Assembly (NCBI GenBank): GCA_947629415.1
Contig: CANRDP010000003.1
Coordinates: 1-58,786, forward strand
Length of the DNA stretch: 58,786 bases
DNA from: an uncultured Bacilli bacterium
Lineage (GTDB): Bacteria > Bacillota_I > Bacilli_A > RFN20 > CAG-449
Direction of reading: 5' to 3'
Position 1 is the stretch's first letter. Every line of letters begins with the position of its first letter. A program made the position numbers and the translations under genes. Positions 31,365 through 47,801 of this stretch are shown piece after piece. The notes below the pieces were generated by a model. It did not search any database. It worked only from the letters and a program-made list of their open reading frames with translations, and was not told the origin of the DNA.

Positions 31365-31823
31365 GTGGAAGAAGAAAAATATCAAAAAATTGTTTCGATG
31401 CATCGACCGAAGGTTCCGACATTAAGAAATACTTTTCTTTCATTTCTTTCCGGAGGACTTATCGGTACTTTTTGTGAAGGCATGAACGAACTCGCTATTC
31501 ATGTTTTTCAGTTTGAAAAAGAGGATGCATCTTTTTTTGCTACCATGATGGTTGTTCTTGTGGCAAGTAGTCTTACTTTTTTCGGCGTTTATAATAATAT
31601 CAGTCAAAAATGCGGTGCCGGTTTATTTTTACCGACATCGGGATTTGCCAATTCCTTGACTTCTTCGGCAATGGAAGGAAGAAGTGAAGGATTAATTGGC
31701 GGAATCGGAAGCATGATGTATTCTTTGGCCGGAAGTGTTTTAACCTATGGATATTTTATTGCTTTTTATTTTGCAACGATTTATTTTTTATTGAATTTGT
31801 GGGGGATAAACCCATGGCATTAA
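31365..31823 (+). CDS. spoVAC: Stage V sporulation protein AC
   Basis: SpoVAC is a forespore inner-membrane channel component for uptake and release of calcium dipicolinate, and may act as a mechanosensitive channel. The 152-residue protein has the family HRPKVPTLRNTFLSFLSGGLIGTFCEG start, several membrane spans, and the conserved FLPTSGFANSLTSSAMEGRSEGLIGGIGS. I choose a GTG start at 31365, 7 bases after GAGGTG; an ATG at 31347 would overlap sigF and lacks a site. It is followed by spoVAD with a 10-base overlap. Confidence 0.93.
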   Translation: MEEEKYQKIVSMHRPKVPTLRNTFLSFLSGGLIGTFCEGMNELAIHVFQFEKEDASFFATMMVVLVASSLTFFGVYNNISQKCGAGLFLPTSGFANSLTSSAMEGRSEGLIGGIGSMMYSLAGSVLTYGYFIAFYFATIYFLLNLWGINPWH

Positions 31824-32806
31824 CAATTCTTTTGAAAAAATGTTATCTTTTGCAAAGTGCTGCGGTGGCAACAAAAGAAGAAACAAAAGGTACTATCGGT
31901 ACATATTTGGATTTCATTTATCCGGATCTTTTTGCCGGGGAAAAAACATATGAATCCGCGGAGCAGGCAATGTGTAAAAAAGCAATAGAAATTGCAAAAA
32001 GCAAAGCGAAATTGGATGAAAAGAAAATCGATATCGCTTTTGGCGGTGATTTACTTAATCAAATTTTCATATCTTCATCCGTTTCCATGGAATTTTCTTA
32101 TGCTTTCGGGGGAGTCTATGGAGCTTGTTCGACATCTATGCTTTCTTTGGCATTGGCAAGTGTTTTTGTTTCTTCCGATTACGCTTCGTATGCTTTGGCT
32201 TTTACTTCTTCGAATTACGGAAGTGCGGAACGTCAATTTCGTTATCCCACTTCTTACGGAATAAAAAAGAAAGAGACGACGACATTAACCGTTTCCGGTG
32301 CCGGAGCGGCGATTGTAACCAAAAAGAAAACCGATATTAAAATCGTAAGTGCCACTTTTGGAAAAGTTTATGATTCCTGTACTTATGATGTCTCCGATAT
32401 GGGAAGCATTATGGCACTAGCCGCTTATCATACGATTGAAGATCATTTGAAATATCGAAATCAGAATTTTGACGATTATGATTTGATTTTGACCGGAGAT
32501 TTATCTCTTATTGGTTCCGAAGTATTGAAAGATCTTTTGGAAAGGAAGAATCTTTCGATGTTGGAAGATGCAGGAAATTGGGTATATAATCCGAAAAAAA
32601 GAAAAAAATTTTCCGGTGGAAGCGGTTGTGCCTGTCTTGCACTTTCAGCATATACAAAAGTTGTTGCGGAATTGAAAAAGGGAAACTATCGGCATGTATT
32701 ATTGGTAGGGACGGGTGCTTTACATAGTAAAGTTTCCGCATCGCAACAAAAAAATATACCGGTAATTGCTCATGCGGTAGAACTAAGAAAGGAGACACAA
32801 AAATGA
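31814..32806 (+). CDS. spoVAD: Stage V sporulation protein AD
   Basis: SpoVAD is a thiolase-fold protein that binds dipicolinic acid on the spore inner membrane. Recognisable parts are GGDLLNQIFISSSVSMEF, GVYGACSTSMLSLALAS, TSSNYGSAERQFRYPTSYG and the C-terminal GGSGCACLALSAY. At 330 residues it is near the usual 338. GGGGGAT precedes the ATG at 31814. The 4-base overlap with spoVAE shows coupling. Confidence 0.95.
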   Translation: MALTILLKKCYLLQSAAVATKEETKGTIGTYLDFIYPDLFAGEKTYESAEQAMCKKAIEIAKSKAKLDEKKIDIAFGGDLLNQIFISSSVSMEFSYAFGGVYGACSTSMLSLALASVFVSSDYASYALAFTSSNYGSAERQFRYPTSYGIKKKETTTLTVSGAGAAIVTKKKTDIKIVSATFGKVYDSCTYDVSDMGSIMALAAYHTIEDHLKYRNQNFDDYDLILTGDLSLIGSEVLKDLLERKNLSMLEDAGNWVYNPKKRKKFSGGSGCACLALSAYTKVVAELKKGNYRHVLLVGTGALHSKVSASQQKNIPVIAHAVELRKETQK

Positions 32807-33153
32807 ACTATTTTTTGGCCTTTCTTTTTTCCGGAAGTGTTTGTGCACTTGCGGAAATTCTTTATGATCATAGCAAATGGACTCCCGGACATATTGTTAC
32901 TTTATTTGTTCTTGTCGGTGCCGGATTATCTTTCTTTAACTTATATCAACCTCTTTTGGATATTTTCGGTGGTGGAGCTTCGACCTTGATTATGAATTTC
33001 GGTCATCTTTTATATCAAGCGGCAAAAGAAGGCGCGGATTCGGGGAATTATCTTCATATTTTTTCTTCCATGTTGATTTCATCATCGGGAATTATTACTT
33101 TTGCCACGATTTTATCTTTGATTTTTGCAATAATCCGGAGACCACGACCATGA
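32803..33153 (+). CDS. spoVAE: Stage V sporulation protein AE (AEb type)
   Basis: This is a small membrane protein of the SpoVA dipicolinate channel. In its 116 residues it has three or four spans, the conserved CALAEILYDHSKWTPGHIVTLFVLVGAGLSF and a Gly-rich FGGGASTLIMNFGHLLYQ. It overlaps spoVAD and spoVAF by ATGA at both ends. Only this AEb-type form is present; the soluble SpoVAEa is absent. Confidence 0.92.
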   Translation: MNYFLAFLFSGSVCALAEILYDHSKWTPGHIVTLFVLVGAGLSFFNLYQPLLDIFGGGASTLIMNFGHLLYQAAKEGADSGNYLHIFSSMLISSSGIITFATILSLIFAIIRRPRP

Positions 33154-34520
33154 AAGGAAAGACTTTATTACATCAGTTTGAAACACAAATCGATTTAAAA
33201 AAGAATTTTGATATTTTAAAAAGAGAATATCAATCTCCTTTTTTGCATATTACGATGTATTATCTGACAAGTTTGCTGGATCTTTTTCAGTTTAATTTTC
33301 TTTTGGAGGAATTAAAAAATGCTTCCTCGTATGTCGATATTATGAATAAAGCCGGATTTCCTTCGGTTTCCGAAATAAAAAAAGAAGAAGATGCCGTCTT
33401 TTTTCTTTATAGCGGTGCCGTGATTCTTTTTTTTGAAGAAGAAGATATTGTTTTAAATTGTGATATCCGTTCCTATCCGTCAAGAGGAATAAGTGAACCG
33501 GATGCGGAAAAAGCGGTTCGCGGTTCCAGAGACGGTTTTACGGAAAATATTATCGTAAATGTCGCTTTGATGCGAAGAAGAATCAAAGATAAAGATTTAT
33601 GTATGGAGCATTTTATCTTGTCGGAAAAATCTCGCATGTCCGTTGTTCTTTGTTACATGAAAAAGAAGATCGATCTTCAGGTAATTTTCGAAATTAAAAA
33701 GAAATTTCAATCGATGGAATTGCATTCTTTAATTATGTCGGATCGGGCTTTGGAAGAAAAAATGTTTTCACAGGGAAAAATGATTTTTCCTTTGGTAAGA
33801 TATACCGAACGACCAGATGTTGCCGCGATTCATGTTCTGAATGGAAAAGTGGCTATTTTTGTCGATACTTCTTCATCCTGTATTTTGACTCCGGTGACAC
33901 TTTTCGATCATGTAAAACATGTGGAGGAATATCGAGAAACACCGGTTATCGGAAGTTTTACTCGTTTTTTGCGATCGATAGCTATTTTTCTTTCGATTTT
34001 TCTTGTACCTGTTTTTTTATGCCTTCTTACCGATAAAGATATACAAAACGGATTTCTTTATTTTGATTTTACCAGTGAAAATTCTTATCCCATTTTTCTT
34101 CAGGCCCTCATTGCTTCTGTTTTAATGGAAATTTTTCGAATTGCTTCCATTCATACTCCGAATGCCTTATCCTCGGGTATTTCTTTAGTGGCAGCGATAA
34201 TTCTAGGACAAATCAGTATGGATTTGGGCTTATTTTTACCGGAAATTCTTCTTTTTGTTGCGATTTCTTCCATTTGTTCTTTTGCTACACCTTCTTATGA
34301 ACTTTCTTTGGGAAATAAATTTCTTTCTTTTCTTTTTCTTCTTCTTTCGGGAATTTTCGGTTTTGAAGGTTTACTTTTCGGTGTAATCGTTTTCTTCTGT
34401 TACTTGGTTTCCATCAAAGTTTTTTCGGTTCCATATTTATATCCGATTTGTCCTTTCGATGCAAAAAACTTTTTGAATGTTTTTACAAGAAAAAATGCGC
34501 GGAAGAAGAAAAATTTATAA
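33150..34520 (+). CDS. spoVAF: Stage V sporulation protein AF (GerA-like)
   Basis: SpoVAF resembles germinant receptor A subunits and helps dipicolinate release. A soluble N-terminal part of about 265 residues contains the hallmark YPSRGISEPDAEKAVRGSRDGF (residues 109-130). About five membrane spans follow, and a basic tail (RKNARKKKN) ends the protein. Its 456 residues are a little shorter than usual (about 490). It ends the spoVA string; spoVAA and spoVAB are not present, a reduced set also seen in Clostridia-like genomes. Confidence 0.93.
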   Translation: MKGKTLLHQFETQIDLKKNFDILKREYQSPFLHITMYYLTSLLDLFQFNFLLEELKNASSYVDIMNKAGFPSVSEIKKEEDAVFFLYSGAVILFFEEEDIVLNCDIRSYPSRGISEPDAEKAVRGSRDGFTENIIVNVALMRRRIKDKDLCMEHFILSEKSRMSVVLCYMKKKIDLQVIFEIKKKFQSMELHSLIMSDRALEEKMFSQGKMIFPLVRYTERPDVAAIHVLNGKVAIFVDTSSSCILTPVTLFDHVKHVEEYRETPVIGSFTRFLRSIAIFLSIFLVPVFLCLLTDKDIQNGFLYFDFTSENSYPIFLQALIASVLMEIFRIASIHTPNALSSGISLVAAIILGQISMDLGLFLPEILLFVAISSICSFATPSYELSLGNKFLSFLFLLLSGIFGFEGLLFGVIVFFCYLVSIKVFSVPYLYPICPFDAKNFLNVFTRKNARKKKNL

Positions 34521-35604: not shown

Positions 35605-36111
35605 ATGAAAAATAATATTCTTTTTTATCTACACCGAATGAGTGCCATTCTTCTTACGATTCTTATTTTTTGTTTCAGTCTGATGTCGGGAAGAATGTCA
35701 TCAAATTATTCTTCGCATGTTGCAGATTTTATTCAAAAATTTTTTCTGAAAACTCCCATGCCTGCTTTTTCATCGGTTTCTTTAATAAAGACGGCAGAAG
35801 AAATTGCTTTTGAGCGATTTATAAGGAAAGCCATCGGGCATTATTTTCTCTTCTTTCTTCTTTCGTATTTTATGACGATGAGTTATCTTTTGAAAAAGTA
35901 TTCCTGGCAATTTGCATCATTAAAAACTTTATTCTATGGTTTATGCATCTCCTTTTTGAGTGAGTTCGTGCAATGCTTTCCCATGGCACGAGGTCCATCC
36001 TTCGGGGATGCTTTTCTTAATTTTTCAGGATATGCTTCCATGACATTTCTTTTAATATTTTTTTATCGGAAAATAATTTTTCGGAAAACAAAGTATATTT
36101 TTCATCACTAA
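35605..36111 (+). CDS. VanZ-like membrane protein
   Basis: This 168-residue protein has an N-terminal span (about 12-29), a FIRKAIGHYFLFFLLSYF span, a short third span ending in SEFVQCF, and a final span. The VanZ pattern RKxxGHxxxFxLL and EFVQ...RGPSFGDAFLNFSGY is present. AAAGGAGG precedes the ATG. Its function is unknown; the same family occurs at 8405-8890 in this window. Confidence 0.78.
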   Translation: MKNNILFYLHRMSAILLTILIFCFSLMSGRMSSNYSSHVADFIQKFFLKTPMPAFSSVSLIKTAEEIAFERFIRKAIGHYFLFFLLSYFMTMSYLLKKYSWQFASLKTLFYGLCISFLSEFVQCFPMARGPSFGDAFLNFSGYASMTFLLIFFYRKIIFRKTKYIFHH

Positions 36112-36140
36112 GTGTCCATTGTATTTATGGAGGAAAAAAT

Positions 36141-36326
36141 ATGAACTATCGAAGCCTAAGTGATGAAGAAATGCAAAATATTAAAGGAGGAGAAGCCATA
36201 ACCATCGGTGTCGTCATGGCCGTTTTGGCAACGGCGATTGTCGCTGTTGTGGTTTATCGACTTTTTATGTCAAATTCGGGAACCACGACCCTCCCGGGAG
36301 GTTTTAAATTTACTTGGGATGACTAA
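36141..36326 (+). CDS. Double-glycine leader peptide (bacteriocin- or pheromone-like)
   Basis: This is a 61-residue peptide. The first 17 residues fit the double-glycine leader consensus LSxxExxxIxGG (LSDEEMQNIKGG), which is cut after GG by C39-type ABC transporters. The 44-residue product would have one strongly hydrophobic helix (ITIGVVMAVLATAIVAVVV) with no cysteine, and ends in a polar tail (GFKFTWDD). GGAGG is ideally placed before the ATG. No exporter or immunity gene is next to it. It overlaps the radC start by 8 bases. The role (bacteriocin, signal or membrane peptide) is unproven. Confidence 0.65.
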   Translation: MNYRSLSDEEMQNIKGGEAITIGVVMAVLATAIVAVVVYRLFMSNSGTTTLPGGFKFTWDD

Positions 36327-37020
36327 AATTGCACAGATACCGATAGAAAAAAGGCCAAGAGAAAAGGCATTTCAATTCGGTATTTCTTCTTTGTCCGATG
36401 TGGAATTATTGGCACTTTTACTGTCGAGCGGAACTAAGAATTGCTCGGCTCTGGATCTTGCTTACGAACTCTTTTATCGCTATGGATCTTTTCGTGGTTT
36501 ACAGATGGTGGATGTATGGGAATTATCCAAAATCAAAGGAATCCAAAAAGCCAAGGCTTCCCGAATTGCTGCGGCTTTTGAACTTTTACGGCGATTTGAA
36601 TCCGAACGGGATAAAGAAAAAATTCGAATAACTTGCCTTGAAGATGCAATTCGTTTATTGCTTCCGAAATGTATTGGAAAACAACAAGAGCAAGTTTTTT
36701 TGATATTATTGAATCCCTCCTTTGAATTTTTAAGATTGGAAAGACTTTTCGTCGGAACAAAGGAAAGTGTTTCCTGTTCTCCAAAAGAAATCTTGATGGC
36801 CATTATCCGTTCCGGGGCATCCAAAGTCTATATCGGACACAATCATCCTCTCGGTCTTCCTTTACCTTCAAAAGCAGATCAAGAGGTTTCTAAGACATTA
36901 TTTTATTATCTTTCTACCTGTGATATTGAACTTTTGGATTCTTTAATTATCGGGGAAAAAGAAAGTTATTCGATTCTGAAAAGAAAAACATTTTTAAATG
37001 AAAAAATTTTAAATTCATAA
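36319..37020 (+). CDS. radC: RadC family JAB-domain protein
   Basis: RadC proteins have an N-terminal helix-hairpin-helix region (SLSDVELLALLLSSGT ... LSKIKGIQKAKASRIAAAFEL) and a C-terminal JAMM metalloprotease-like domain, here with the zinc signature GHNHPLGLPLPSKADQE. The old link to DNA repair is not well supported and function is unclear. I start it at the ATG at 36319, which matches the conserved family start (KRPREKAF) and overlaps the peptide gene; no strong ribosome site exists, so translation may depend on coupling to the peptide gene. The length is 233 residues, typical. Confidence 0.88.
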   Translation: MTKIAQIPIEKRPREKAFQFGISSLSDVELLALLLSSGTKNCSALDLAYELFYRYGSFRGLQMVDVWELSKIKGIQKAKASRIAAAFELLRRFESERDKEKIRITCLEDAIRLLLPKCIGKQQEQVFLILLNPSFEFLRLERLFVGTKESVSCSPKEILMAIIRSGASKVYIGHNHPLGLPLPSKADQEVSKTLFYYLSTCDIELLDSLIIGEKESYSILKRKTFLNEKILNS

Positions 37021-39127: not shown

Positions 39128-40405
39128 TTATTTGTCGGATTTTTGCATTAAATCCTCCAAAAAATAAAGTTGATAGAAAAATCCTTCTAACATTTTTACA
39201 GGGATACTATTTCCAGCCATACGGATTATTTTATCTTTAGAGAATAATTTTCCTCTTTTTCCATTCATTATGTTATGCTCTATAAGAGTTTCATAATCTT
39301 TGTCGTTAAAGCCCATAAACAAGAGACATTCACGTGGGGTTAAGTATCTAAAATGACTTTTACCTCTTTTGTTGCAATTATAATAAATATTTCCAGAATT
39401 AGGATGTCGATCTTGCTTGGTGGTAATTGTACGAATAAATTCCTCACTAGTTAAATGACCACTTTCATCGATGATTTTAGGATTTTCGTTCCAAATTCTT
39501 CTTCTAGATGGAGTATCATTTGGCGTGGATTCAAACATCTCATTTTCGTATTTTGTTTCGTTAGTTCGTAATAAATTCTCAATTGTTATTTTTTTATAAT
39601 AGCTTGATTCTTCGTATTTTTTAACAATATATTCTTCATTTTCCCCCCAAGAATTAAAGAATTCTTCAACTTTAGCAGCCAATTTCTTATCATCTCCAAC
39701 ATAAACACTTAACATCAGTAATCTTGGTCTATTTTGTGGAATTCCATAATTTCTAGCATTTACAGGCAAATATTTGCTAATATATCCTAATTCCTTTAAA
39801 TTATTAATCCACTTATTGAAATTATTGATATGTCTTTTTGAAAGTAAAGTTGGGACATTCTCCATGATTAAATAACGTGGAAGAGATTTTCCACATGATT
39901 TCATTTCCGCAAGAATTCTGCCAACTTGCCATAGTAAACTAGATCTGCTTCCCGAGCCTTCTTCTATTCCTTTATTATAGCCGTGAAAAGCACCAACATT
40001 TGATAAATCTTGGCAAGGGAATGAATAAGTAAGTAAATCGGTATCTTTAGGCATATTTCTTCCTTCGATTTTACATATGTCAGTTAAATTTTTTGTTCTT
40101 TTAATGGATGTATATATGCGTTTTAACATCTCATCACTATATCCCTGTAATGTCTTTAACTTCATTGGACTTTTTCCATCACCACTTAAAGTATAATGAC
40201 TTAATTTTTCAAGAATAATTTCTTTAGACATTTTTGAAATCGAAGGCAATATATTTGTCCCTTTATGCATTGCATCATAAGCAACAGATGCATGAATATC
40301 CCATTCACAAGTTGCTTGTACTTTAATTTTAATACCGATATTTTGAAGTGCTCTTGCTTGACTTCCAATACCACTAAAAAATTCGACTATTTTTAATTCT
40401 TTCAT
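39128..40405 (-). CDS. C5-cytosine DNA methyltransferase
   Basis: This enzyme transfers a methyl group from SAM to cytosine in DNA. Motif I is FFSGIGSQARAL (residues 9-20), motif IV has the catalytic Cys in SFPCQDLSNVG (Cys131), motif VI is MENVP (182-184), motif VIII is QNRPR (225-229), and motifs IX-X near the end are RYLTPRECLLFMGF and MAGNSIPVKML. The target-recognition region lies between about 235 and 345. It is the last gene of the operon, 55 bases after the AIPR gene, with no clear ribosome site. It likely protects host DNA from the nuclease of this system. The recognised sequence is unknown. Confidence 0.93.
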   Translation of the reverse strand: MKELKIVEFFSGIGSQARALQNIGIKIKVQATCEWDIHASVAYDAMHKGTNILPSISKMSKEIILEKLSHYTLSGDGKSPMKLKTLQGYSDEMLKRIYTSIKRTKNLTDICKIEGRNMPKDTDLLTYSFPCQDLSNVGAFHGYNKGIEEGSGSRSSLLWQVGRILAEMKSCGKSLPRYLIMENVPTLLSKRHINNFNKWINNLKELGYISKYLPVNARNYGIPQNRPRLLMLSVYVGDDKKLAAKVEEFFNSWGENEEYIVKKYEESSYYKKITIENLLRTNETKYENEMFESTPNDTPSRRRIWNENPKIIDESGHLTSEEFIRTITTKQDRHPNSGNIYYNCNKRGKSHFRYLTPRECLLFMGFNDKDYETLIEHNIMNGKRGKLFSKDKIIRMAGNSIPVKMLEGFFYQLYFLEDLMQKSDK

Positions 40406-40460
40406 AGTTTTGTTTCGATTCTAAAATTACATTATTGAAATTTAATGTGCTTAATAGCGA

Positions 40461-42569
40461 TTAATCAATTAATACGCCAACATCACCTAATTTTTCACGA
40501 ATTTTCCAAATCAATTTGGCCTGTTTAGATGAGGGGAATTTGGGCATTTTTGTATCAAAGGTAGTGGGGATTTGTAATAAACTAATTTCTGTAGGAGATA
40601 ATATTTTTCTTTTTAATCCTTCGTCTAATAAACGTCTCCAATAAGGGGCACCTAAGTTAAATATTTCAGTTTCGATATTTACATCTTTTAAAAGTTTATT
40701 ATCTTTTGTTTCAGAACGGGATTGTTCTTCAATTAGGCTCTTGTTTAATAAGGATTTGCAAAATTCATCAGTAAATTGATATTTTATTTGTTTGTAATTA
40801 ATCCATGTAGCTTCTTTTTTACATTGTTCCATACCATTGCCACCTAGATTTTGAATATATTCGAATGTTATTTGAGCTAACCGTTCGATTTCTGCAACTA
40901 GAGATGGATATAATTTTTGTTTTTTCCAAATTAAGTTATAGTCTAGGCATAATTCATTTGGAATTAAAGAAATTAATTTTGAAATTGTATAAGATACCAC
41001 GCCTGCTTTAACATATGTTTCAGTAATATACCATGAATTTGAAGCATTTTTAACAATTTTATCAGTTTCTTTGAATAAAATGGCATAACATATGCAGTTT
41101 TTAAAGAATTGGTCGTTGATACTTTCTGGTGATTTTTGATATTTTTCATCAATATATTCAGCAAAGAAAGACATACATTTTTCAGAACCTTTACATACTT
41201 GATCAGGTCTTAGTAATTCTGCAGAAACGAAGTATTTAGATAATTCTTCCTTTTTGATTACTTGATTCTTTGGATATTTTTTAGCAAAGTTGTCTTTTTC
41301 GCTCTTTTTTAATAATTTAAATTGTTCTTGTCCATATTGACCTCGTGATCGTTCATAAAACCATAATGTATTATTAATAGAATCTTCTTTCGCAGGTGCT
41401 TGATTCTTTTTTGCTAAAGCTTCAAATGCACGATGGAATGGATGATTAGAGAATAAATCAGAATCTTTTATTTTATTTTGACTATTTGCATATTTTGAAA
41501 TATTTTGAATCATCGTGTCATAATCATCATTTTTAACAACGGTTAATTTCATAGGAACAAAAATGTTATCAAGTGACATTTTATCTTTTAAAGCTGCAGA
41601 AGTTAATGAAGCGGTGGTTTGACCACCATTGATGATTTGTAAATCCGTAATTCTAGTAATTTTATGATTATCGTCGGATAAGGTAATTTCGGATGCGGTA
41701 CAAGCAATCCCATTATTATACGTAAAGAACTTTGTCGGTTCATTTTTAATTGTTAAACGAATTCCTTTATTGATTTTGCCTCGATTGCTTAAAAATGTAC
41801 GAACATTGCCCTCTAATAATCTTGATCCATGTTCAAAATAAATCTTATGAAGCAAATTTCCTGGAACAATTGCTAAATAGGCATCATAATCTAGATTTCC
41901 ACTCATTTCAGCCTTAATACAGGGGATTCCATCAACTCCATATTTATTAGTTTCGATTACAATAGGTTCTCTTTCCCGGCCCGATTGATATAAGTCATAA
42001 AATCTATATAGTGACCAAATATCCATTTCTACTTTTTTATCATGAAAAATTTCAAAAGGAAGAGTTTTAACCCTTTCGCTTAATCTTTTGTTTGTAATTA
42101 TGATGAGTTTTATTCGATCAATTGATTCATTTGATTCTAAATCAACATAATCTATTTTTAATCTTCTTCCAATATCTTTACCTACTAATAAAAGATTATC
42201 AGTTATATCAAAATATTTATCTAATTGGTTATCATAGGCTTCATCCAAAAAATTTATCATTCTTTGCATAATTTGTTTAATTAGAGTCATCGTAATTGTT
42301 TCATTTGTATTGTCTATAAATTCGCTAGAAATTAAAACTAGGGATTTATCGGATTCATCAAAAGCATATGCATCAAAAGACATGATTTTTTGATTTCTAC
42401 ATTTTTTTTGCATTGGAGCAATTTCGGGGTTTACAACTAAACTCATATCAACAAGTCTTTGAATGGTATCGTTTAAAAAATACTCATCAGGAGTGGTTCC
42501 TTCAATTTGAGCATTAATATCAATATCTTCCAAAAATTCTTTTTCAAATTCTTCATATGTTTGATTCAT
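40461..42569 (-). CDS. AIPR (abortive infection phage resistance) family protein
   Basis: A 702-residue protein of the AIPR family. The conserved core is intact: RLLEGNVRTFLSNRGKINKGIRLTI, then FFTYNNGIACTASEI, and the strong LQIINGGQTTASLTSAAL motif (roughly residues 255-335). An N-terminal region has features of a nuclease-like domain (VLISSEFIDN), and the C-terminal third is helical. AIPR proteins are linked to phage defence and in some clusters to restriction, but their activity is not well defined. It begins 3 bases after the PD-(D/E)XK gene. Confidence 0.88.
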   Translation of the reverse strand: MNQTYEEFEKEFLEDIDINAQIEGTTPDEYFLNDTIQRLVDMSLVVNPEIAPMQKKCRNQKIMSFDAYAFDESDKSLVLISSEFIDNTNETITMTLIKQIMQRMINFLDEAYDNQLDKYFDITDNLLLVGKDIGRRLKIDYVDLESNESIDRIKLIIITNKRLSERVKTLPFEIFHDKKVEMDIWSLYRFYDLYQSGREREPIVIETNKYGVDGIPCIKAEMSGNLDYDAYLAIVPGNLLHKIYFEHGSRLLEGNVRTFLSNRGKINKGIRLTIKNEPTKFFTYNNGIACTASEITLSDDNHKITRITDLQIINGGQTTASLTSAALKDKMSLDNIFVPMKLTVVKNDDYDTMIQNISKYANSQNKIKDSDLFSNHPFHRAFEALAKKNQAPAKEDSINNTLWFYERSRGQYGQEQFKLLKKSEKDNFAKKYPKNQVIKKEELSKYFVSAELLRPDQVCKGSEKCMSFFAEYIDEKYQKSPESINDQFFKNCICYAILFKETDKIVKNASNSWYITETYVKAGVVSYTISKLISLIPNELCLDYNLIWKKQKLYPSLVAEIERLAQITFEYIQNLGGNGMEQCKKEATWINYKQIKYQFTDEFCKSLLNKSLIEEQSRSETKDNKLLKDVNIETEIFNLGAPYWRRLLDEGLKRKILSPTEISLLQIPTTFDTKMPKFPSSKQAKLIWKIREKLGDVGVLID

Positions 42570-42572
42570 TTG

Positions 42573-43493
42573 CTAATTCTCCTTATTTTTTTCTATCATA
42601 GATAGGGATAATTCATATTGAACTTTGATTATTTCTTTGGGTAGATCTATCATTTTTATACGTGGGAAATTTTTATCTACTAAATATGAATCTCTTTCAA
42701 CAAAATTATAAACGTAATTGTCATAAATTTCATTATACGAATAACCAACTTGTTTAAGTTTTTCAAAGAATATGTCTTTTTCTATTTCATACTGTAACTC
42801 ATTTGTAATTTCTAAAATAAGATTATTTAGAGTAACTCCATTAAAGCTAGAACTCATTTTTTCAAATTGATACACCACAAGGTGACCATCAAGTTCACTA
42901 TCTAGTTGCTCTAAAGAAGAAATGGTAATAGTATTTTTAAATGTGCTAATTGCTTTTATTTCATACCATTCGTTTTTAATTGAAAAATCCTTATGTGTGG
43001 GTTCTGGTCCACTCCAACCATTTAGACCGTCAGTGATATTATAGTTTTTAAAGATAAATTCTTTTAGAAACATCAACTCACCGATTAGACCAATGACTTC
43101 GTTTTCAGATAAAATTTTTTTATTTCCTGTAAACATCTTTTTCCATTGATTATAGCGATTAATAATTTCCATATAACCATTATCGTTTTCTCCAGTAAAT
43201 TTTTCTGTTTCAGTGATAATATCTTCACAAAAATGATAAAACAGGGAATTATTTTCTTCCGAATTAAAGGAAAATAAAATGGAGTTACCTTGACTTGTTT
43301 TAATTTGTTTGATTTCGATAAAATTAGTGCTTAAAACTTTTGTTGGAACAAAATTCCCATTATATCTTAAAGTTAAATATCCTTTTTCATTTTTGCCTAA
43401 ATATAACTCTAATGGATGGCTTTCACTAACTCTAATATAAGTTGAATTTTGGTTAATAGATTCTAATTTAGCTTTAATATTTTCTAATTCCAT
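42573..43493 (-). CDS. PD-(D/E)XK motif protein (DUF4420)
   Basis: This is a 306-residue protein of the DUF4420 family, a predicted restriction-endonuclease-fold protein. The family pattern is visible: VIGLIGELMFLKEFI (the helix with Glu), then GWSGPEPTHKDFSI and WYEIKAI, giving the D...ExK active site (Asp in HKDF, Glu and Lys in EIK). I choose the ATG at 43493, which has GAGG 9 bases upstream and follows the Z1 stop by one base. It is the best candidate for the DNA-cutting subunit of the cluster. Confidence 0.85.
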   Translation of the reverse strand: MELENIKAKLESINQNSTYIRVSESHPLELYLGKNEKGYLTLRYNGNFVPTKVLSTNFIEIKQIKTSQGNSILFSFNSEENNSLFYHFCEDIITETEKFTGENDNGYMEIINRYNQWKKMFTGNKKILSENEVIGLIGELMFLKEFIFKNYNITDGLNGWSGPEPTHKDFSIKNEWYEIKAISTFKNTITISSLEQLDSELDGHLVVYQFEKMSSSFNGVTLNNLILEITNELQYEIEKDIFFEKLKQVGYSYNEIYDNYVYNFVERDSYLVDKNFPRIKMIDLPKEIIKVQYELSLSMIEKNKEN

Positions 43494-43494
43494 A

Positions 43495-46263
43495 TTATTC
43501 TTCCTCGGACTGATTTTCATGATCTTTATCATAATAATCTACAGTTCTATTCACGGTATATATAATTGATTTTTTTGTTGCATCATTATCTCTTTGTGGA
43601 AATCCAATAGCATATCCAACTAGATATGAATATTTGCGTGTTTTTAATTCATTTAATAAATTAATTATATCTTTTCCTTCATCCAACCAATTTTTATCGG
43701 ACACAAATAATTCTTCATCTATCCCTTTAGGACGTTTAGGATGAATGAAATAAATAATTAATAAGGGATTTCTTCCTTTGATTAAATAGTCTTGTGCTTT
43801 TGTATGAGTTAAAGGAATCTCTTCTTCTTTTATTCCATATTTAGTATCCGACCTACCACCTAGTCTAAGTCTATGTCTACTCATTCTAATGCAGTTTTCA
43901 CGAACATCAAAAATTCTACCAACAAGAGGGATATCGATTTTTAAATTTTCAAATTTAAATTTTTCAGAAGCATCACCTCCGATGACTAAAACATCAAAAA
44001 AAGGTAGGTTTTGCTCCTCTTTTGATAAAAGCCCTTTGATTTGCTCTTGATCAAAATAAGTATTTCCTTCTTTAGGAATGATTACTGAATCGATTAATTC
44101 TTTCACAAATCTAAAAGAGATATTTCTAAAATAGGGATGATTTTTAATGTTATCATCTTTTTGTGAAATATCGATATTATTTAAAAATTCAAACGTTTTT
44201 TCTATATTAAATTCATTTTCATCTAGATTTCTTGTGAGATAGGGCGTTTCAAACAAACTTCCATAAAATGATTTAATGACTGATTTTACTTTTGTGCTTC
44301 TCATTTTATTAGCTGCAGTGATGCCTAAATCAACAGATTCATTTAATACACGAATACCAAATTCTATAGGTTTTTTCTTTTCCTCACTCATAGTTTTAAT
44401 GTCTTGTTTTAATGCCTCGATAGATTCATTAATATATTGATAATAATTATAGGAATCTTCACTAACCCAAATTCTACATAAATCCCCATATCCATCTCGA
44501 TAACCAAACCATCGACCCATTTGCATTAGCACGTCAAAAGTAGAGGTGTTTCGATAAAAATAACTTGTCATTAACCCTTCTAAAGTTAAGCCTCTAGAAA
44601 GTGCTAATCCTCCAACTGCAATTACTCTTAGTCCTTTTTTTGCTTCATTATAATTTAATTTAGATGAATTTCTAGATGAATTTACAACAATGACTTCGAT
44701 TTTAGCTATAGATTCATATAATTGTCCAAAAACTTTCTCCCAAGTAATATCAATATTATCTATATCTAATTGTTTTAAGAAATGCACATTAAAAGTATCT
44801 TGTAAATCCTTAATATTTTGATTAGTTAAAGCTATTTTCATTGGAAGTTTATATGTTTGTTTAACTGATCGTTTGATTTGAACATAATAATCTTTAGCTA
44901 TATCACAAATAACTTCTTGTACTTTAATAAATCTTGACATATTGATTAACATAGAACGATGTGTGTTTTTATTGATATCTCTTAAATCTCTTATAGCATT
45001 AGCAATAAGAAATGTTCGAATTGATTCATAAAAAGAATCAAATAGTTTAGCACCATCCCATTCTTTTCTATGCTTTAAGGGAAAAATTTCATCGTTATAA
45101 TCTTTTATAAAGCGAATGTTATTATTGGATTCAACAAAATATTTTCTAGGTCCACAATAATTGCTTGGTGCATTTAGTGCGAAAATAAAGTCTTTTGGAA
45201 ATAAATCATCCTTTTTCATTTCATCTTCTTCACTATAACTAATGAACACATTAGCAAATGGGGTAGCGGTGAATCCTACATAGCTGCTTTTTGTGAATAA
45301 AGATAATATTTTTCTAATATGTTTATTGATTTTTGTAGGATCCTCATCCTCTTTGTTTGTATTAATCGATGCGTTATCTGCTTCATCATCAATGATTAAT
45401 GCAGGGTAATTAATTGTTTCTTGACCTGGATAAGTGTTAATTCTTTTCAATGATGAATATATTTTTCTTAAAACACTGACATTTTTCTTAAGAATAAAAA
45501 TTAATGGTTCAGAAGAGTAATTACTTAATTTATATGTAGTATTTTGATCATCAGTACTCACAAAATCTTTTCCTCTGCTAGTAAAGGCTTTTGGTGTTTT
45601 TTCACCTCTTCCAACACCAACTTCAACTCCATTTAAACTATCCCAACCAATAAATCCTTCTTCAACTCTTTGTTGAGTCTGTCTTCTTAGGCTTTCAATT
45701 GTTCCAGTTAAAATAAAAATCACTCGATATCCAGCATCTGCGGCTTTTGTTATTAATCCGATGTAGTTGGATGTTTTTCCTGATTGAACATCACCGACAA
45801 CTAAACCTCTTACTGAAAATGTAGCATCTTCATTGGGATTACCTAAATGTGACATCAAAGTGAATAATGTTTTATCTAAAGTGTTAATGACATTATCTGT
45901 AAAATTTGGTTTATTCGTTAAATAATTCTTATATCTCTCCCAATAATAAGGATTAAAATCTTTAGAATTTTTTAAATTTTCATACCATTTGTCATCATGC
46001 TCATAGTCACCTAGAATAATACTTCCTTCTTCTTGATAAACAGAATATAGGGATTTGATTTTATTTAAAAGATAATTCTTTTCCTTTTCATTTAAGACAA
46101 AATTTGGAAGCTCTTGAAAAAATCGATTATGCGATTGCTCTATACAATTTTTAATAAAATCTTCCGTAATTCTAAAATTCGGATTACACATTTGTTGTAC
46201 ATCACATTGTGTTTTAAAATCTTTTATATAAATATCAAAAATTTCATCTTTAGTTTGATTCAT
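43495..46263 (-). CDS. Z1-domain superfamily II helicase/ATPase
   Basis: This 922-residue protein has a helicase core. Walker A is GDVQSGKTSNYIG (residues 157-169), Walker B is IIDDEADNAS (DDEAD at 292-296), and motif III is GFTATPFANV (332-335). After it comes the Z1 domain, with VGGLALSRGLTLEGL, then LMQMGRWFGYRDGYGDLCRIW with the conserved Arg residues. It is long but of normal family size. GGAGA precedes the start; the gene overlaps the ATPase gene upstream by 14 bases. It is expected to move on DNA and act with the nuclease and the GHKL protein. Confidence 0.92.
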   Translation of the reverse strand: MNQTKDEIFDIYIKDFKTQCDVQQMCNPNFRITEDFIKNCIEQSHNRFFQELPNFVLNEKEKNYLLNKIKSLYSVYQEEGSIILGDYEHDDKWYENLKNSKDFNPYYWERYKNYLTNKPNFTDNVINTLDKTLFTLMSHLGNPNEDATFSVRGLVVGDVQSGKTSNYIGLITKAADAGYRVIFILTGTIESLRRQTQQRVEEGFIGWDSLNGVEVGVGRGEKTPKAFTSRGKDFVSTDDQNTTYKLSNYSSEPLIFILKKNVSVLRKIYSSLKRINTYPGQETINYPALIIDDEADNASINTNKEDEDPTKINKHIRKILSLFTKSSYVGFTATPFANVFISYSEEDEMKKDDLFPKDFIFALNAPSNYCGPRKYFVESNNNIRFIKDYNDEIFPLKHRKEWDGAKLFDSFYESIRTFLIANAIRDLRDINKNTHRSMLINMSRFIKVQEVICDIAKDYYVQIKRSVKQTYKLPMKIALTNQNIKDLQDTFNVHFLKQLDIDNIDITWEKVFGQLYESIAKIEVIVVNSSRNSSKLNYNEAKKGLRVIAVGGLALSRGLTLEGLMTSYFYRNTSTFDVLMQMGRWFGYRDGYGDLCRIWVSEDSYNYYQYINESIEALKQDIKTMSEEKKKPIEFGIRVLNESVDLGITAANKMRSTKVKSVIKSFYGSLFETPYLTRNLDENEFNIEKTFEFLNNIDISQKDDNIKNHPYFRNISFRFVKELIDSVIIPKEGNTYFDQEQIKGLLSKEEQNLPFFDVLVIGGDASEKFKFENLKIDIPLVGRIFDVRENCIRMSRHRLRLGGRSDTKYGIKEEEIPLTHTKAQDYLIKGRNPLLIIYFIHPKRPKGIDEELFVSDKNWLDEGKDIINLLNELKTRKYSYLVGYAIGFPQRDNDATKKSIIYTVNRTVDYYDKDHENQSEEE

Positions 46264-47740
46264 AGAGTTTCTCCTTAATTAACGCTAGAATGTTTTCGTT
46301 ATTAAATGGCTCATAAGTTTTTAATAATTCGAATATTTTTTCATCATCAAATTGAAATTTGCGTCTAAAATAGTTAATTTGATTTATTCCTACTATGATG
46401 ATAGAGTCTAAAGCATTTTGTGATTGCTCTAAGTCTATTTTTCTATTACACATTGAATTATAAATATCATTATAGGGAATAGAAGATGAAATAATATCCA
46501 ATAAACGAATTATTTTTGCTTTATCTTTATCTTCAAAATCATTGATAAAATTCTTTACAAAATTAGAATCTGTATTAATAAAAAACATTTCTTTTTGCTC
46601 CCTATTTAGTCTTTTATTCCAAATTTTATTGTCATCCTTTTCTAAATTTAGGCGAGCTCTTTTAGAATTTTTGCTTTCAGATTTAGTTCGTACATCACTT
46701 ACAGCCTTTTTTAAATGTTGTAAAAATGATATTGGAATATTAGCATTTTGTTTTTTAATATCGATACCCCATTCTTCATCTAAGGAATTTGGGATATCTA
46801 CCATTATTCTTCCATATTTATATAGTTCAGAATTTAAGTTTGTAGATGCTAATTTAAACCATGTTCCATAGGTAATTAATCGATTATTTCGGTAGATATA
46901 AAATCCTTGTCCTTTTCTAAAAGAATCTATTCCTCCTAATTTTTCAATGTCTTCGTCGGATAAATCCGTAGTATGGGGAAGAATAACTTGTTGAACTCTA
47001 ATATTTTTACCATTATACTTTATATATTTTTCTTTGAATATATCGCTTTTTGGGTGATTTTCTAAAAAAGGATCCAATCCTTTAACTTTATCTTCATTAA
47101 TATAAATTTTTAGCGGAGAAAAGGGCTTGTTTAAGAATCTATGGAAGACTAATGCGATATGATGTTCCATATTTTCTACTTCTTCTTGAAGTGCTGGAAT
47201 AATAAGTCCGTCCTTCTTTTTGCTGATAATATCAAATTCTTGCCAAATAACTAAAGTTCCACTTTTTAAATCATTTAGCATATCAATTTTAGGTAATTTT
47301 TTGATTTCATCTTCGTCTAATTCTAGACAACACCAACTTTTTTCTTTTGTAGCGTAATCTAAGTCCCACATTAAAACAGAAATTATTTCATTCTTTTTTG
47401 ATGCTACAATTAATTTTCTGCATTGAGATAGGGAAGCGGATTTTAAACCAAGTCCAAATCTTCCTAAATCTTCGCTATTATATTCTTTTTTTGATCCATA
47501 TTTCATTGCATTTATTAATTCATCACGATTCATACCATCCCCATTATCAAAAAAAACAACGCTTATATCGTTAGGATTAATGGGTGTAAATATTTTTATT
47601 TCTGTTGCATGCGCAGAAATGGAATTATCAATAATATCTGCGGCCGCGGTTTCAAAACTATACCCAATAGAACGCATTGAATTCATCAAAATGCTAGGTT
47701 CTGGATTGTTTAAAATTCTTCTTACCATATCCTTCTCCAT
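46250..47740 (-). CDS. GHKL (MORC/MutL-like) ATPase of the defence operon
   Basis: A 496-residue protein with an N-terminal GHKL ATPase fold: the N-box AADIIDNSISA (about residue 35), the G1 motif FFDNGDGM (about 64-71) and G2 motif LGRFGLGLKSAS (about 93-104). A second S5-like domain and a helical C-terminus follow. This resembles prokaryotic MORC-type proteins that cluster with Z1 helicases and methylases. AAGGT lies 6 bases before the ATG at 47740; starts at 47755 and 47725 are possible. It is first in the operon. It may serve as a DNA-clamping ATPase. Confidence 0.85.
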   Translation of the reverse strand: MEKDMVRRILNNPEPSILMNSMRSIGYSFETAAADIIDNSISAHATEIKIFTPINPNDISVVFFDNGDGMNRDELINAMKYGSKKEYNSEDLGRFGLGLKSASLSQCRKLIVASKKNEIISVLMWDLDYATKEKSWCCLELDEDEIKKLPKIDMLNDLKSGTLVIWQEFDIISKKKDGLIIPALQEEVENMEHHIALVFHRFLNKPFSPLKIYINEDKVKGLDPFLENHPKSDIFKEKYIKYNGKNIRVQQVILPHTTDLSDEDIEKLGGIDSFRKGQGFYIYRNNRLITYGTWFKLASTNLNSELYKYGRIMVDIPNSLDEEWGIDIKKQNANIPISFLQHLKKAVSDVRTKSESKNSKRARLNLEKDDNKIWNKRLNREQKEMFFINTDSNFVKNFINDFEDKDKAKIIRLLDIISSSIPYNDIYNSMCNRKIDLEQSQNALDSIIIVGINQINYFRRKFQFDDEKIFELLKTYEPFNNENILALIKEKLYESN

Positions 47741-47801
47741 ATGAGTACCTTGCATATTTTCAAAAGAAAAACTTGTACTTCACTAATAGAAATGTAACAC
47801 A

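Follow-up and report, generated by a model that had tools for sequence, protein, structure and literature searches.

This locus raises the question of what becomes of a short hydrophobic peptide that carries a double-glycine leader and is encoded immediately in front of radC. The stretch of DNA analysed (58,786 nucleotides, hereafter the window) contains the following features around the peptide gene:

35605..36111, + strand: gene of a VanZ-family membrane protein, the upstream neighbour (Pfam VanZ over cut-off; 3 genomes)
36129..36133, + strand: Shine-Dalgarno sequence GGAGG, 7 nt 5' of the peptide ATG, read by eye
36141..36326, + strand: peptide precursor gene, ATG start, 61 aa plus stop (from the ORF list)
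36141..36191, + strand: 17-codon double-glycine leader MNYRSLSDEEMQNIKGG, identified by the consensus positions -12, -8, -7, -4, -2 and -1
36192..36269, + strand: predicted transmembrane helix, residues 18-43, at the start of the mature peptide (AlphaFold2 helix 18-43; hydropathy)
36276..36320, + strand: conserved C-terminal hairpin, residues 46-60, with the motif PGGFKFTW (model strands 46-51 and 55-60)
36319..37020, + strand: radC (Pfam RadC and UPF0758_N over cut-off)

The leader reads L(-12), E(-8), M(-7), I(-4), G(-2) and G(-1). Leu at -12, Glu at -8 and the hydrophobic residues at -7 and -4 agree with the double-glycine pattern, for which GG, GA or GS was accepted at the cleavage site of C39-processed peptides; the accessible part of PMC6363468 gives the ComA leader consensus as Leu(-12)-X3-Glu(-8)-Leu(-7). 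The assignment to the C39 type made in an earlier, sequence-only reading was thus borne out, as was its prediction of a hydrophobic product of 44 residues, the length that a putative cut after GG would leave. The AlphaFold2 model of the peptide (pLDDT 85.5, pTM 0.45) has a short helix at residues 8-13 in the leader, the long helix 18-43 and the hairpin 46-60. Among 42 aligned relatives the best 19-residue hydropathy averaged 2.66, and the C-terminal flank was more positive than the N-terminal one in 37 of the 42. The radC ATG (36319-36321) and the peptide stop (36324-36326) give the overlap noted earlier, which amounts to 8 nt. The closest purine-rich stretch ahead of radC (GGGAGG, 36296-36301) ends 17 nt upstream of its start, so that the earlier remark on a possible coupling of peptide and radC expression is fair. 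The tight overlap with radC is also kept across the order. Elsewhere in the window, SpoVAD- and GerA/SpoVAF-like genes (31799-34520, + strand) suggest that the host probably forms spores, and an Mza-type anti-phage defence locus occupies 39128-47755 on the - strand (a C5 methylase, then MzaB-, MzaC-, MzaD- and MzaE-like proteins).

Relatives of the peptide were present in 55 of the 58 nearest genomes, and profile A1 matched 61 of the 62 genomes of the window's order within a class sample of 394 genomes (counted from the match table). Named records matching the peptide are uncultured Erysipelotrichaceae, Erysipelotrichales or Bacilli. Across the order the gene is mostly single-copy and usually stands immediately 5' of radC. 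Neighbour clustering recognised radC adjoining the peptide in 44 of the 55 loci; the script missed the window's own radC, where ORFs overlap, so that the true count is at least 45, and radC was not recognised beside the peptide in 10 loci, the window excluded. In 37 of the 44 radC-recognised loci, radC starts between -10 and +3 nt from the peptide stop. The valS gene lies upstream of the peptide in 43 genomes, and no recurring small gene was noted beside it in the neighbour clustering. pN was lower than pS in all 15 comparable pairs, which were saturated. The recurrence in the nearest genomes, the pN<pS pairs and the maintained radC spacing confirm that the peptide ORF is real and conserved and did not arise by chance. 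Conservation reaches at least 90% among the 42 relatives at leader residues E10 and G17 and at each of P52, G53, G54, F57 and W59. The leader pattern is kept in relatives, but the exact GG is not: it occupies the aligned cleavage site in 33 of the 55 loci and in none of the 14 loci of family f4, in which position -2 is Val, Pro, Ser or Cys although a C39 protein is present. The cleavage rule may be shifted in this family.

No exporter had been seen near the peptide gene, and this holds, the C39 gene of the relatives being located at another locus. The 90.6%-complete assembly of the window's own genome yielded no C39 protein and no ybeY either. Since ybeY, which adjoins the C39 gene in relatives, is missing too, the gap is uninformative and the conclusion that the peptide has no partner was rejected; the proposed pairing of peptide and C39 protein would rest on the relatives. 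A search with the 404-aa C39 protein of genome G002 gave no match in five genomes (run without a positive control). A C39 gene was present in 53 of the 58 relatives, genome G034 having the peptide and no C39 match. The C39 ORF encodes 382-447 aa in 44 of these 53 genomes and 120-176 aa in families f2 and f3, where it consists of the C39 domain alone, without a membrane domain; two of the 53 genes run off the end of their contigs, and a frameshift interrupts another. In the alignment rows covering the sites, the catalytic Cys and His were found in 53 of 53 proteins and the Asp in 51 of 53.

By contrast with this intact peptidase domain, the Walker A or signature pattern occurred in 0 of 41 C39 proteins of the order (the alignment held 41 of the 44 proteins of 382-447 aa, three near-duplicates being left out). 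Relative to the exporter of family f20, the proteins of the order are missing the ATPase half as well as two stretches of cytosolic loop, at about 250-265 and 345-372, which we take to contain the coupling helices. One C39 protein of family f8 matched ABC_membrane over cut-off, and the partner profile aligned to PCAT1 residues 11-447 (E 2.3e-25). The AlphaFold2 model of the partner (pLDDT 86.8, pTM 0.82) shows the C39 domain plus six long helices, and its best Foldseek matches were PCAT1. The gene is directly 5' of ybeY in many genomes of the order; a merged ybeY/cdd cluster lies beside it in 42 of 53 loci, some of them cut by contig ends, and the identity of YbeY was confirmed by a Pfam match in 5 of 5 proteins tested. 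An origin of the short C39 proteins as fragments of incomplete assembly was rejected, as many genomes share the same length and neighbours for them and particular loop stretches are absent. The C39 partner of the order is thus mostly a shrunken exporter, in which a C39 domain is joined to an ABC membrane domain of six helices and the ATPase is missing, although an ATPase encoded by another gene could drive it. The C39 exporter for which the sequence-only reading had proposed a genome search was absent from the window's own assembly, and relatives have the C39 protein as a peptidase, usually not as an exporter; the two conditions that would have refuted that reading, concerning GG conservation and the exporter, thus gave a mixed outcome. 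Genome G047 contains, in addition, a second, full C39 exporter (L073) with an adjoining ORF that resembles a radical-SAM maturase by eye.

Weaker A1 matches were obtained in families f20 and f25, which we infer to be Erysipelotrichales-like, and here too the peptide is encoded 5' of radC, in the order seen in the window; in some of these loci the two are separated by a small gene that looks SPOR-like by eye but has no match in Pfam. The seven f20 C39 exporters that were read are full length, with Walker A in 7 of 7 and a signature off consensus, and at least six of the seven lie just upstream of ybeY. Among the matches listed for the class sample, peptide and C39 protein were found in the same 17 f20 genomes. 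Some f20 genomes, namely G186 (L363), G282 and G341, carry the peptide beside radC in tandem.

In f25, leader and peptidase vary together. Thirty of the 37 matching genomes were read at the peptide locus, the seven weakest being left out. The peptide carries a leader in 13 of the 30 loci, and a small C39 ORF (115-145 aa) was found in 9 of these 13; it is leaderless in the other 17, with a C39 ORF in 0 of 17, a count weakened by the divergence of such small ORFs, which can be missed. Fisher's exact test gave p 5e-5 by genome, an optimistic value because related genomes are not independent, and p 0.002 by genus (5/6 vs 0/9), which relatedness also makes optimistic. The exceptions with a leader and no C39 match are G317, G436, G465 and G488; in the leaderless G451 and G462 a weak C39-like match, either partial or broken, was not counted. 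All six C39-only ORFs read in f25 were directly upstream of ybeY. Where the C39 gene has been lost, the leader has been lost as well but the mature part persists by radC, which indicates that selection acts to retain the mature part.

These data bear on the possibility that the peptide is a small membrane protein that is never cleaved, its leader-like N-terminus being retained by descent while the C39 protein of the ybeY locus cuts something else. The replacement of GG by VG, PG, SG or CG in all f4 loci, the existence of leaderless forms and the lack of linkage between the peptide and peptidase genes would all fit. However, the strong conservation of E10 and G17, the joint loss of leader and C39 in f25 and the shared presence of both genes in f20 argue against it, and we regard it as unlikely.

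Similar arrangements were found in the mycoplasma-like genomes, read with TGA as Trp; families f11 and f22 are presumably mycoplasmas. A C39 protein is again encoded next to ybeY, immediately 5' of it in f11 and separated from it by no more than one small ORF in f22. Both f22 proteins had Walker A, and the single one tested for ABC_tran proved to contain it. Both f11 proteins tested (L193 and L195; about 615 aa) lacked Walker A and an ABC_tran match, apparently another loss of the ATPase. Profile A3, built from 21 f22 sequences, matched 153 of the 320 genomes of the mycoplasma-like order, 131 of them in f22, and at least four f22 genomes were unmatched. Of the 30 f22 loci read, 11 have the peptide immediately 5' of rplU (gaps of 71-215 nt); at several further ones rplU stood a few genes off or was not seen. 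The peptide is upstream of rplU in 5 of the 5 f11 loci read, with one gene between in two of them; some f11 peptide matches are weak (E up to 0.005). The peptide matches in G193, G294 and G454 fall within longer frames and seem to be due to chance. Pairwise comparison linked profiles A1 and A2 (98.7%, E 3.8e-16), A1 and A3 (96.4%, E 1.3e-9) and A2 and A3 (96.0%, E 4.7e-9), the shared leader contributing to these scores. A tree built from the C39 and membrane domains placed the forms of the window's order and of the mycoplasmas together (support 86/93) and did not join f20 to them; its branches are long and its support modest. In the very small genomes of family f17 (L186, L187, L190), a full C39 exporter occurs near rpsU with small GG peptides of its own beside it, and this was treated as a separate system.

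The presence of full exporters with ABC_tran in f20 and f22 also favours an ordinary bacteriocin of class II, or a peptide pheromone, that a C39 exporter would both cleave and export, as do the canonical leader, the tandem copies in f20 and weak matches to models of lactococcin and of class IIb bacteriocins. All NCBIfam and Pfam leader-model scores, however, were below the curated cut-offs; the Pfam search with 42 peptide members gave weak matches only, and the family libraries hold no model for the peptide. A bacteriocin would not be expected to be order-wide, mostly single-copy and syntenic at a housekeeping locus, nor to persist in leaderless versions as in f25. There is no dedicated exporter in the peptide gene cluster, the ATPase is absent from all 41 C39 proteins of the order, and the mature part is conserved, not variable as in a pheromone. 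We consider this explanation quite improbable, and, while the earlier interpretation is partly supported overall, a secreted bacteriocin is unlikely. The proposal that the gene acts chiefly as a short upstream ORF, controlling radC through its translation, would account for the overlap or near-overlap in most loci, but it is very improbable given that the amino-acid sequence itself is conserved, that radC was not recognised at 10 of the 55 loci (window excluded) and that the gene is near rplU or elsewhere in mycoplasma-like genomes. Two further identities were considered and disfavoured: a type IV pilin-like or Flp-like peptide, which has a similar hydrophobic stretch, since the Glu at +5 expected of type IV pilin-like peptides is missing by eye, and a competence peptide, a competence-only role being argued against by the family members in mycoplasma-like genomes.

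The reading we favour, and hold to be moderately probable, is that a double-glycine precursor is clipped by the ATPase-less C39 peptidase of the ybeY locus to give a peptide that is inserted into the membrane and not pumped out. The peptide would be translated tightly with radC, and an acidic leader would retain the precursor in the cytosol until, most likely, the C39 cysteine peptidase removes that leader in the cytoplasm. As the C39 protein of the order has no ATPase, it probably clips the leader rather than exporting the peptide, and its membrane helices may aid insertion. The mature peptide, a transmembrane helix and a short C-terminal hairpin, would stay in the membrane. Its N-terminus would probably face outward, and its C-terminus, which is basic and bears the hairpin, would probably lie inside. 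Lineages that possess a full exporter may export the mature peptide instead.

On a broader scale we tentatively suggest, at somewhat less than even odds, that a single family of double-glycine peptides has been maintained beside radC or near rplU since the common ancestor of the Erysipelotrichales-like and mycoplasma lineages as the substrate of the C39 protein at the ybeY locus, that the exporter was stripped and then lost together with the leader, and that the mycoplasma members are missing substrates. If this is true, a stripped exporter has turned a secreted peptide into a membrane component in several lineages; a peptide exporter and its cargo could then become a non-secretory system for membrane-peptide maturation. 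Each intermediate state would still have living examples: a complete exporter, one lacking its ATPase, a peptidase by itself, and neither peptidase nor leader. A description of the peptide family or of an ATPase-less C39 exporter was not found in the literature searched, which covered few subscription papers.

Among known systems, the PCAT1-type transporters (PDB 4ry2, 6v9z) are similar in their C39 domain with Cys, His and Asp and in the six-helix ABC membrane domain. They differ from the proteins of the order, which have no nucleotide-binding domain and shortened cytosolic loops (41 of 41 examined), and from the C39 domain that occurs alone in f2, f3 and f25. According to the accessible part of PMC6363468, LahT150 is likewise a C39 domain without ATPase that cuts GG leaders, with similar leader recognition; it was made in the laboratory by truncating a full exporter, whereas the truncation reported here is natural. 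The lactobin A/cerein 7B family (class IIb, TIGR03949) shares the leader and hydrophobic core (18.8 bits, cut-off 21.5), but unlike it the window peptide has fixed synteny and an order-wide distribution. The available text on MAM of Faecalibacterium (PMC12184118) and HetC of Nostoc (PMC10986499) describes PCATs that serve envelope structure or differentiation and not killing; these transporters are presented as PCATs, unlike the ATPase-less form of the order, and HetC needs its ATPase (PMC10986499). Finally, JCVI-syn3A protein 0401 is described in the accessible part of Breuer et al. 2019 (PMC6609329) as sublancin-transporter-like with a C39 domain, and the mycoplasma-like genomes have such a protein by ybeY, a likeness that rests on the published description of 0401. 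The same text considers 0401 removable on transposon data, which argues against strict essentiality in JCVI-syn3A, and proposes a lipoyl-peptide role, different from the one suggested here. It also states that no double-glycine peptide is known for 0401 or, citing Dirix 2004, for other mycoplasmas; the peptide family supplies concrete candidate substrates for the mycoplasma C39 proteins and makes that question testable.
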